Source of the DNA: Botryococcus braunii
Lineage: Eukaryota; Chlorophyta; Trebouxiophyceae
Assembly (NCBI GenBank): GCA_002005505.1
Contig: KV908605.1
Span: 31,001-95,000 of the forward strand
Length of the DNA stretch: 64,000 nucleotides
Direction: 5' to 3'
The position numbers were made by a program, and so were the translations under genes. The notes beneath the pieces were generated by a model. That model was not told the origin of the DNA. It saw only the letters and a program-made list of their open reading frames with translations, and made no database searches. The first letter of the stretch is position 1, and each line of letters starts with the position of its first letter. Shown here in pieces: positions 56,398 to 63,757 of the stretch.

Positions 56398-57197
56398 TTA
56401 AGGTGGGCACGCGTTTGTCGCAATATAAGCGCAGACTTGTGCGAAAGTGGTGATGGACTTAGGGCAGATTGTAATTTTAATATCTAAGACACCGTCGATT
56501 GTTCCAGTAAGGCCTGTAGGGCAGCCTGCCCAGGTTGAAATTGCATCGATGTTGATAAGTGCAGGGTTGCTGGCAGGAGACTGCCAGGTATTTACAAGAG
56601 GTAAGTATTGTGGTGGCCCCAGAGCATCAAGACCTCGGTAACTCCTCAGATTAGGGTTGTTTGTGAATTGGACGAACTGGTAGGGTGGGCAGATCAGGCC
56701 ATTGAAGGTATTTCTAAAATCAGGGAAAGCTGTGCCATTAACAAGAATGGCTGCCTGTGCAGATATGACTGATTTGAATCCAGGAACAGAAAGAAGTGAA
56801 GGAGCCTGGGAAGACGTACGAAGCTCGTTTGCTGCCAGACTACCAACGACTTCGGCCAGTCTTGGTAAGAAATCTGCTGGGGTCACTGGTGGAATTGGAT
56901 TGATCAACAGGTTGTGTTCCACAATCAGGTTGCCATTGAGGGAGTTGATATTCTGTAGGCCCATCAGGCTCAGCCAACTGTTAAAGACCGGGCCCCTGTA
57001 GGCTGTCGCATTGCTGGCACGGAAGGATGCTAGTGTTAAGCTGCCATTCAGGCTGCCACATTGTTGCCCAAAGACTAGCTGATTGCAAGGGATAGCTCTG
57101 GTATTAGTGTTGGGGGGGATTCCTGTCTGAATAGAGGCAGTGCAAGTTGCATCACCGTAGTCCAGAACTTCAATGATGGTGTTGTTGCCTCCACACA
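56398..57197 (-). CDS. matrix gene B exon 11: module 4 and C-terminus
   Basis: 800 nt including TAA. CGGNNTIIEVLDYGDATC to TTFAQVCAYIATNACPP; the tail repeats the hinge Cys pattern without prolines. Confidence 0.75.
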
Positions 57198-60100
57198 CTG
57201 CAAAGCGCCAAGACCCATTTGTACCGATTTGGAGTACAGAGTACACATTCGTGTCATCATTACTTCAAAAACAGAGTGTCAGGTATGGCCAGGTCTTGCA
57301 TGTGTCTGCCAAAAATCTACAACAGCACTTATGTAGGGTATCCAGCACACATGCAGATGCAAATCTGAGGATGCTCATCCTCTTCAAAAGCGGTTTAAGA
57401 TGCTCATCCTCTCTAAGAGGGGTTTAAATGGTTACATGGTCCTCATGAATGGTGCTTCACTGCTTGAAACCTGGCGTTAGTTGGCATAGTCAGAAAAATG
57501 CAGTCAGAATGATGCGAAGTGACACAAACAGCGAGACAACAGATACAAAATGAGACAGAATGATACGAAGCGCGGCAAGGGGTTGAGGATCAGGTCAAGC
57601 TTAGAGTCATGACTAGGGTGCACACACCTGGTGAATTGAAGACTGGGGCGGCATAGCATCTGATGGGAGGAGGTGGTATGCCTACACAGCCTCGTGATGA
57701 CAGGTATGCACAGTAACTCTGCCAAGTCTGTCCACAGAAGCACACCAGGGCGTGTCAGTACAGTGTCATTCACATTTCAATCAATCGAGAATCCATTGCA
57801 CATAACCTCTGGGGGGAAGTCCCCGTCTGGCAACGAATGCCACAAAATTTTGTAATAGTAACCTTGAATCAGTAATATTAACCTTGAATTTTTATTGGGG
57901 TAAAAGCAACATTGCGGCCATTCCCACAAAGGAGATAGTTTTAAAGAGCCATGGTATGATAACACTCTGACTGAATTTGGCAAAACATAGGATGAGAAAG
58001 GCTTAAAATCTTGAAAAGAACCTTAAAAGCAAGCAATTGCACGTATTTCGGAGAGGAGCTACAACCACAGTATGCACATACACTGCAGAAACTCACCGTG
58101 AATGGAAGACAGCCAATAACATCGATTTGGAAGAAGACATTGTCGAGCAACACTGTGTTGGGGCAGCCAGCCAGGATGCTCAAGGCTGAGACTGAGCCAG
58201 TGCCAGTGAAGTTATTGCCTGTGATGACAACGTTGGGGGCAAGCTGTTTCGTCCAGGTTGCCAGGCCGTTCAGGCCATGCAGGGAATCCAACGCGAAATT
58301 GTCTGTGATGTTGATGTTGTTTGGCGAACATGTAAGCCCGGAGAATGAGCTCAGGTCATTGAGTGCAGTTCCTTGGATCTTGAGTGTGGTGAAGTCACCT
58401 GAGTCACCGATTGGTGGGCCAATGATCCTCCTCACGCCCGACAGGCTCGGAAGGCCTACCAGTCGGGGGACAGGGGGTGGGGCATCCGGCGAAATGCTGA
58501 AAGCGATGGACTCGATCGCTTGGATGGTGAACACGTTTCTGAGGGTTGCCAGGAACACCGGGGCTAATGGGACAGGAATGGGAAATGGAAAGTGATCCAC
58601 AACCAAAGACAGCACAAACTCAATACTCTCAAGGGTTCCAACCCCAAGGGCTAGGAGACCAACATCGAACTGCGGTTGCTGGTAGGTTGCTGCAGTTGAA
58701 TTGAGCTGGTTTGTCACAAACAGGTACAGGTTGCTATTCAAGGTACGGCAAGATTGGCCCGGGAAAATGGTGGCCTGGCAATTGGATTGGGCAGCAGTAA
58801 GGGGTGAGAGGGCGCCGTTGACGAACAGTTGTGCAAAACAAGATCCGTTGCCAATGTACTGGACCTGAAGACTCCAGGTGATGCCTGCTCCACAGACTGC
58901 AAAAGAAAACACCAAAGAAATCCACATTACTCTGCACTCTGATAACTCTGCAGAGACTGGATTGCACGAAGACCAACCGCAACCCTTTGAGGCCTAGATC
59001 CTAAAAACATTATGCACAAAGCCGGCATGGTACTGAGTTATTGCTGGAATGCATTCCTTGCCCTTTGAACAGAATATAGCAGGACAATGATGGATCATGA
59101 TCGAACAGGCAATGATGAGTCAGTAGCATGGATTGCATTCCACAGTTGGCAGATGGTGGCATCAATCTGAATCAGTCATGCAGTAAAAGTTCCTGTGCCC
59201 TGCAACGATGAAAAAAGAAATGCAAAGTCACAGCAGCCAGTGTTTCATAATGACACCACTTAACAGAACTTGGTGAGGTGCAGCATTGTCTCTGCAATTC
59301 TGAACTGACACTTCACGAAGGGAGTGAGAACAAGGGGGCTCGTGCTGTCGGCAGGAGTAGGCATTGGACCAGCGCAGGATGAATCTGGTGGCGGTGGGGA
59401 AGGCGAAGGCGGGCTCGGGGGAGGGGGGGACTTGGGAGGGGAAGGAGGTGGGGGTGGGACATTGGCTGGAGGCGGCGGTGGAGGCGGTGGGGGAGATGCT
59501 GGTACACACTGCCCTGGGGTGTTGACAAAGGTGCAGTACACATTCCAGCTCTGGACACTCAAACACCATATCACTTCCACATACAGCATTTTATAGGCCC
59601 TAGCGTTGACGAGAGGCAGGTTTTGGCCATCTAAGTCGGTGGTTTGCAATCGTGTTTTACAGGATTAAAGACACCGAGCATCGCTTTCCAAGTGATCAAA
59701 GCAGACATCAACTCTACTTTCACAACTGGACATATCAGTCTTGCCACCCAGACACCACAGTGAATGCACATTCAATCATTGTAAAGAACAAGACACGGGG
59801 GTCACGAACCGGCAAGACACAGACTGCAGTGAAGATCAAAACGGTCGAATTGAGGGGAGATGCATTGCCAGTTGGGCATTGAGCCAGCTGTCTGATTGGG
59901 GCGACGGCTTGAGAGTTGAGCAACGGGTTCCCCTGGGTGAAGACAGTGGGGCCAGGGTTGAAGAAGGTGCGAGCGCTTTCCAACCCAGTGAAGCTGCCCA
60001 GACGGGCATTGTTGGTGATCTGGATGAAGCCTGGCGTGCAACTGATGCCTGAGAAGGATGTCAAGTCCAAGAGAGCTGTGCCCTTGATGATGAGGGAACC

Positions 60101-63100: not shown

Positions 63101-63757
63101 TGTGGGCTGTGGGTCGCATCCGGTAACAGCTCTCCCATGAAGAGGCCGAGTCAGGATACCATTTGTAGTGTTCAGGGTTGTGTACTTGATTGTGTGTGGG
63201 CAAATCACGTACTGCACGGCAAATCAGGTTGACAAGTGATGCAAAGATTTCATGGTGAGTAGTTAATCACAAAAGGGGCTTTGTCTCACATCCCATATAT
63301 CTCGAACAATAATGTAGACATGAGGAAAGATGCGAGGAGTCCAACATGTGAGGCACCGGGGAGTCAACACCACAAGTACACGAAGTGTAGTCCATCTTTT
63401 GTTCAGAGACAAAGGAGGGCGGCAAATGGGAAGGGATACTTACATCCATTGGTTAAGCTTGGCACTATAGGAGTTCTGCATTGGCTGCACTCACACACAC
63501 CAATCGTGTCAGGTACGAATGTAGGAGGTATGCCACATCAGGACAACTGCAGGGGGGCACATGATCTATCACAATACATCAGCCAGTTGTTTAACACAGA
63601 CCAAAAGTTTAAAAATTAAACATGCCAATACCCTCCACATGCACCCGACGAAGCTGCCGTACTCTGTTGACTGCTCCGCCACGGCCTTTACTTCAAATGG
63701 GAGCTCGAAACCATGGGTGGCAAAGGTCAAACACAGCAGCAGTAGTGCCAGTGGCAC
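56398..63757 (-). CDS. modular secreted matrix protein, four homologous modules with proline hinges (exons 2-11)
   Basis: Exon 1 (MAK) is expected just right of the window by analogy with 46221-46229. Summed with it, exons give 3,828 nt, exactly 1,276 codons with the stop. Plan: signal peptide; a short Cys segment; module 1 (exon 4, 270 aa); hinge (exon 5); module 2 (exons 6-7, 262 aa); hinge (exon 8); module 3 (exon 9, 267 aa); hinge (exon 10); module 4 (exon 11, 266 aa) with a hinge-like Cys tail. Modules share GDGTC-type N-termini, NPIPG/FPIPVPLAP, LPSLSG, an IKGTAL..FSGL.C.P..I.ITNN..L.S..GL stretch and a late LA.CP. They recall receptor-L or leucine-rich beta-helix repeats, but I recognise no exact family. 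Pro-rich hinges resemble those of algal pherophorin-type wall proteins. Probable role: extracellular matrix or surface protein (inference). Confidence 0.75.
57628..57727 (-). CDS. matrix gene B exon 10: short hinge
   Basis: 100 nt, phase 0 to 1. TWQSYCAYLSSRGCVG, then IPPPPI, ending AATTCACCAG before GTGTGT. Confidence 0.7.
58097..58896 (-). CDS. matrix gene B exon 9: module 3
   Basis: 800 nt, phase 1 to 0. CGAGITWSLQVQYIGNGSC to IGCLPFT, donor GTGAGT. Confidence 0.75.
59310..59550 (-). CDS. matrix gene B exon 8: long proline hinge
   Basis: 241 nt, phase 0 to 1. SWNVYCTFVNTPGQCVP, then a Pro-rich stretch of about 40 residues, then PADSTSPLVLTPF. The donor GTCAGT was chosen because its phase fits exon 9; it is the weakest boundary. 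Confidence 0.6.
59810..60238 (-). CDS. matrix gene B exon 7: module 2, second part
   Basis: 429 nt, phase 0 to 0. EAVVAQECANCATSTN to FTAVCVLP, donor GTTCGT. Confidence 0.75.
60754..61109 (-). CDS. matrix gene B exon 6: module 2, first part
   Basis: 356 nt, phase 1 to 0. CGSLYGFLSIVDNGDGTCSA to FFTSLRQ, CAG then GTAAGA donor. Module 2 alone is split by an intron. Confidence 0.75.
61347..61482. repeat. (AC)n in intron 5 of the unit B matrix gene
   Basis: About 65 AC units; the matching unit A site (43180-43197) has fewer than ten. Confidence 0.95.
61629..61776 (-). CDS. matrix gene B exon 5: proline hinge
   Basis: 148 nt, phase 0 to 1. CWNQYCTFVNKGGCVPC, then alternating Pro/Ser runs to ISPTIAP before GTAAGT. 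Confidence 0.75.
62162..62970 (-). CDS. matrix gene B exon 4: module 1
   Basis: 809 nt, phase 1 to 0, fully open. Starts at a TACAG acceptor with CNSTASIFNANDV and ends SACTST before GTACGT. Confidence 0.75.
63444..63484 (-). CDS. matrix gene B exon 3
   Basis: 41 nt from a TGCAG acceptor to a GTAAGT donor: QCRTPIVPSLTNG. An alternative acceptor 51 nt upstream works in unit A only (AAG there, ATG in B). Confidence 0.55.
63663..63757 (-). CDS. matrix gene B exon 2: signal peptide core
   Basis: 95 nt, acceptor CGCAG at 63758-63762, reads VPLALLLLCLTFATHGFELP, ending at GA then GTACGG donor (phase 2). Unit A has ATGCAG here, giving a false internal ATG; the real ATG is in exon 1. Confidence 0.65.

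Follow-up and report, generated by a model that had tools for sequence, protein, structure and literature searches.

Layout of the unit B gene

The 64,000-nucleotide stretch of Botryococcus braunii DNA analysed here, called the window below (assembly GCA_002005505.1, contig KV908605.1, positions 31,001 to 95,000 of the forward strand), holds two tandem copies of a modular gene, units A and B. The gene under study is unit B. Its exons were placed in window coordinates using open reading frames (ORFs), GT-AG signals, and comparison with unit A and two further copies, C and D, which lie farther away on contigs C303 and C139. On the minus strand, unit B has four homologous modules (M1 to M4), pairwise 27-37% identical, with linker exons (H2 to H4) in between (Table 1). 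This alternating layout, proposed in a preliminary description of the DNA, proved to be real, with the corrections given below, and the exon borders of unit B also bear out its statement that modules start in phase 1 and linkers end in phase 1.

All module exons of unit B are open. The stop codon follows directly on the tail of M4, with no membrane anchor beyond it. Proline makes up 19 of 49 residues in H2 and 29 of 60 in H3, both with SPPPP motifs, and 6 of 33 in H4, where the motif is absent. Inspection by eye shows a hydrophobic leader in the two candidate exons. Joining candidate exon 2, which ends in phase 0, to either candidate exon ahead of M1 gave no continuously open frame by eye, and copy D has one additional base ahead of the candidate exon 2 donor. 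The donor of H3 has two options: a phase-1 GT at 59370 that only unit B has, and 59346, where copies A, C, and D have their donor site; there unit B reads GC, with a 20-bp deletion adjoining it. Position 59370 was our first choice, which is weakened by having no counterpart in copies A, C, and D. Long CA/TG repeats lie in an intron of unit B (61350-61480) and beside the gene (54834-55026).

Table 1. Parts of the unit B gene and its tandem paralogue, in window coordinates.
Feature	Position	Strand	Description
Unit A, tandem paralogue	38285..45689	-	89.0-90.5% DNA identity across the gene including introns
Candidate exon 1	63929..63949	-	ATG plus 6 codons (MKTIISK), donor AAG/GTCTCT; putative signal peptide start, from ORF and GT-AG
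Candidate exon 2	63632..63757	-	VPLALLLLCLTFATHG..., putative hydrophobic core of signal peptide; donor AGG/GTATTG, phase 0
Putative short exon(s) ahead of module 1	63400..63600	-	Donor GGAT/gtaagt common to copies A, B, and D
Module 1 exon	62162..62970	-	269 residues counted from first Cys; phase 1 to 0
Linker exon H2	61629..61776	-	Module-1 tail CWNQYCTFVNKGGC, then Pro/Ser linker; phase 0 to 1
Module 2 exon 1	60754..61109	-	Phase 1 to 0
Module 2 exon 2	59810..60238	-	Phase 0 to 0
Linker exon H3	59346..59550	-	Module-2 tail SWNVYCTFVNTPGQC, then longest Pro linker; 3' end uncertain (59370 or 59346)
Module 3 exon	58097..58896	-	266 residues; phase 1 to 0
Linker exon H4	57628..57727	-	Module-3 tail TWQSYCAYLSSRGC, then short Pro stretch; phase 0 to 1
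Module 4 exon	56398..57197	-	265 residues and stop; own tail TFAQVCAYIATNAC without an intron; AlphaFold2 model

The preliminary description also had every hinge open with CAG followed by a motif, xxxTGGxxxxxxTAYTGY. The CAG is actually the intron acceptor, and the motif is the C-terminal end of the module. A W..YC motif belonging to the linker was ruled out by M4, which has the same stretch (TFAQVCAYIATNAC) inside its own exon. The tail also runs in line with the module in the public proteins P0004 and P0005, and in the AlphaFold2 model of M4 it forms a helix (residues 251-260). Because M4, P0004, and P0005 carry the motif in line and it is helical in the model, we place the module end there. 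The exon border therefore falls inside the module, slightly ahead of its end.

Among the family members analysed, the junction on the linker side of each module is nearly constant. On six contigs of the B. braunii genome, 52 of 56 module starts show an AG placed exactly two bases upstream of an in-frame Cys codon. The identical search, run as a control, found a Cys codon with such an AG at 73/1,357 interior positions and 41/784 upstream positions. Three of the four exceptional starts keep the phase, with the AG 5 or 8 bases off (by eye). In a chosen sample read by eye, all 15 linker ends have an in-frame N/GT, a phase-1 donor, although the one in H3 is doubtful. The second border is ahead of the tail in phase 0 in the genes on C303 and C139 and after the tail in those on C43, C275, and C330, where all 14 module ends inspected read TGC AGG T (12) or TGC GGG T (2), a phase-2 donor. 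Thus, the clades differ in the second border and the linker-to-module junction is the near-constant element, which makes the module-plus-linker pair a 1-1 unit in either clade.

A clustered family and its duplications

Two single-protein queries gave at least 105 and at least 132 matches in the B. braunii genome; these counts are lower bounds because the matches are exon pieces. The detailed analysis covered 6 of the 25 contigs with matches to the second query, where 78 profile matches merged into 59 modules; judged by their profile ends, 55 are complete. Among intervals between successive modules that were shorter than 6 kb and free of N, 35 of 41 have a Pro-rich stretch on the gene strand and 4 of 41 on the opposite strand. 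As a control, 1,500 intervals were drawn at random from these stretches without removing the linkers, and 347 of them held a Pro-rich stretch. Four of the six intervals without a Pro-rich stretch are H4 of unit B and its copies, where the linker is short. Unit B is therefore one member of a large clustered family in this genome. The preliminary description knew of no family with this layout, a statement that fails inside the same genome and against the named protein Bobra.0252s0058.1. Among the open-licence papers searched, we recognised none that describes the module family. Module matches also occur within very long open frames at C19:765008 (1,891 residues), C28:655371 (4,877), and C330:116660 (1,978). 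The last lies next to a run of N that may account for its length; the frames on C19 and C28 may be single-exon giants, chance frames, or products of N.

Units A and B are offset by 18.1-18.4 kb and are 85-91% identical along the stretch. In unit A, the frames of H2, H3, and M1 are shifted. A 58-row tree joins M1, M3, and M4 from the copies to public proteins that have a single module of the matching type, with starred support; M2 has a long branch, and its placement is less certain. The M4-like P0007 and the M1-like P0010 are both listed with a longest contig of 24,434 bases, which would fit one shared contig. Because each of M1, M3, and M4 falls with its own type of single-module protein, the module positions in unit B look old on the sequence comparison, and the recent event at this locus is whole-gene copying. 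A second near-identical set of ORFs lies on both strands of the window at 31172-34219 and 49563-52556. These are about 18.4 kb apart and were therefore probably duplicated together with the two units.

The preliminary description had suggested that the symmetry allows in-frame duplication of a module plus its hinge, and a sister cluster on C43 supplies a concrete case. There, 200001-202878 is repeated at 202446-205331, an offset of 2,445 bp; the repeat starts where a stretch of N ends and may reach further. When the repeat is cut at 2,445 bp, each unit consists of one linker and one module exon. The units are 89.8% identical overall (module 93.2%, linker 95.9%, remainder 87.6%, gaps counted) and presumably lie within one transcript. 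At 260-270 kb of the same contig, a two-module unit has apparently been copied. The copying of bead and link together in one cluster helps explain how a family of this type can grow. A large inverted duplication of a module cluster was also seen at C330:91632-124692, with 93.8-95.4% identity.

Predicted fold of the module and its relatives

Using hmmscan, the Receptor L domain model PF01030 did not match any of the four window modules (E <= 10) or any of 28 aligned family modules (E <= 0.1). The window modules gave two chance-level matches to other Pfam families (best E 0.061), and the 28 modules matched three other families with one member each (best E 0.021). Four relatives had no Pfam match at all at E <= 1. 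At the level of sequence profiles, no Pfam family convincingly matches the module. In the Protein Data Bank (PDB), a sequence search gave a single match, a coat protein with E 0.046, which was taken as chance.

The predicted module fold resembles the L domains of the insulin receptor and leucine-rich repeats (LRRs), remote sequence matches to PF01030 proteins had E values of 3.2e-14 and 1.9e-13, and hhalign with three PF01030 proteins gave a probability of 89% and E 2.4e-6; all such scores may be inflated by the LRR-like repeats of these proteins. The earlier hunch of a Receptor-L/LRR module thus fits the fold and the remote matches, while L domains and LRRs are not cleanly separated. The modules are like the Receptor L domain of insulin, EGF, and other receptors in predicted fold and in remote sequence relation, and they differ from it in lacking an hmmscan match to PF01030 and in being joined by Pro-rich linkers. 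No viral protein matched by fold at E <= 0.001; the best was a Tupanvirus protein named Receptor L-domain (E 0.073, probability 0.97).

Searched with three queries, a set of about 5.8 billion proteins yielded 5, 10, and 29 matches. The strong matches comprise unnamed proteins that have no Pfam domain listed, together with a single named one, Bobra.0252s0058.1 (Botryococcus braunii, JGI Botrbrau1, EukProt). PF01030 is carried by all three weaker matches in the 10-match search and by 19 of 22 in the 29-match search (the exceptions are P0034, P0040, and P0046). Many weaker matches carry PF18962, a secretion tail known from bacteria. Bobra.0252s0058.1 combines half a module, a Pro-rich linker, and a whole module in a single predicted product. 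Its tail and linker-to-module junction are of the same type as in the window gene, and it is 32% identical to M3 and 27% to M4. Over residues 86-386 it shares 93% identity, short of 100%, with its best counterpart in this genome. At exon level, at least 2 squalene-synthase-like loci were found here, where race B reportedly has one SS plus SSL-1 to -3. On these two counts, an assignment of this genome to race B is not supported. The best counterparts are in the C43 cluster, where the intron comes after the tail.

Proposed function and alternative readings

Unit B probably encodes, in multiple exons, a secreted matrix glycoprotein built as a bead-and-rod chain, and it belongs to a large clustered family. 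The likeliest product is a secreted hydroxyproline-rich matrix protein, given the hydrophobic leader, the SPPPP linkers, the Cys-rich modules, and the clustered family in a colonial alga noted for its matrix (PMC10762512); the steps beyond the sequence are ones that we infer. The putative signal peptide would direct the product to the endoplasmic reticulum. Each of the four Cys-rich modules is predicted to fold into an N-terminal beta sheet and a Receptor-L-type beta-helix, with the C-terminal helix as a cap. The SPPPP motifs suggest that the Pro/Ser linkers would become hydroxylated, O-glycosylated rods, and the bead-and-rod product may be deposited in the wall or colony sheath. Linker-plus-module units may be copied via unequal crossing-over within introns with the frame intact, for which there is one clear case, alongside the whole-gene copying shown above. 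Since linker-to-module junctions are nearly all in phase 1 in the part of the family examined, linker-plus-module copies would keep the frame.

Unit B could instead be a decaying family member, a pseudogene or set of fragments and not one expressed four-module gene. This we find unlikely. It would account for the GC and adjoining deletion at the H3 donor, for the lack of a consistent open frame in the exons ahead of M1, and for the frame shifts in the tandem sister A. Against it, the module exons of unit B are open, H3 offers a phase-1 GT donor that only unit B has, and 12 of 14 exon comparisons between unit B and its copies are free of insertions or deletions (indels) whose length is not a multiple of three. 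Only M1 in copy A and M1 in copy D depart from this, the latter with one stop. Intron pieces had such indels in 17 of 19 comparisons. No match was obtained in two intron comparisons or for M1 of copy C, and M2a in copy C aligned partly (75 of 118 codons). Another, rather unlikely, reading is that the family serves recognition at the cell surface or after secretion (mating, self-recognition, or binding of symbionts or pathogens), with modules that diversify and linkers that only display them. L-type folds in known receptors bind ligands, the clusters are large with recent copies, and the ratio of nonsynonymous to synonymous change (dN/dS) is near 1 with frames mostly kept; it ranges from 0.28 to 1.85 across exons and from 0.86 to 1.50 in M3 and M4. 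However, no membrane anchor follows M4, and the ratio pooled by halves for units B and D (pN/pS 0.76 and 0.82) is not significantly off 1 (p 0.15 and 0.18). Positive selection is therefore unsupported.

The gene could also be PSAP or its direct orthologue, in which case only the modular evolution would be new; we regard this as the least probable of the alternatives. PSAP, reportedly described by Tatli et al. in 2018, is by its title a unique matrix hydroxyproline-rich glycoprotein of B. braunii, the alga in which the module family is present. The likeness comes from that title and one citing paper that discusses PSAP (PMC8750022). Nothing seen ties the PSAP sequence to the module family, and the family has many members. 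PSAP, the obvious candidate for a relative, might belong to it; if so, a sheath protein of an oil-producing alga would acquire a fold and a family.

Green algae form colonies by means of matrix glycoproteins, and to our knowledge the matrix building blocks outside the pherophorin lineages are less well known. Pherophorins are a large algal family with globular domains joined by a Pro-rich rod, with 118 members in V. carteri (PMC9818292). The pherophorins of Volvox and Chlamydomonas share the globular-plus-Pro-rod plan of the window protein, with two globular domains per protein versus its four modules. The preliminary likening to pherophorins holds for this plan and not for the domain: PF12499, the pherophorin domain, matched none of the 4 window modules or 28 family modules. 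Genome-wide it had 0 matches here, but likewise 0 in 14 control genomes.

Phase 1-1 symmetric units served animals for their matrix protein modules. Whether this green alga built its own large bead-and-rod matrix family through phase-1 symmetric linker-plus-module copying, with a Receptor-L-like module absent from Pfam, seems to us evenly balanced. If true, the family would stand beside the pherophorins as an independent counterpart and would offer a living example of exon-unit duplication in a non-animal lineage. The near-constant phase-1 junctions and the recent in-frame unit copy make a testable system for modular evolution by intron recombination, and the module is a domain without a Pfam model. 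Elsewhere in the window, long minus-strand ORFs at 2-12903 and 24264-29766 resemble retrotransposon polyproteins, with zinc-knuckle and integrase-like motifs seen by eye.
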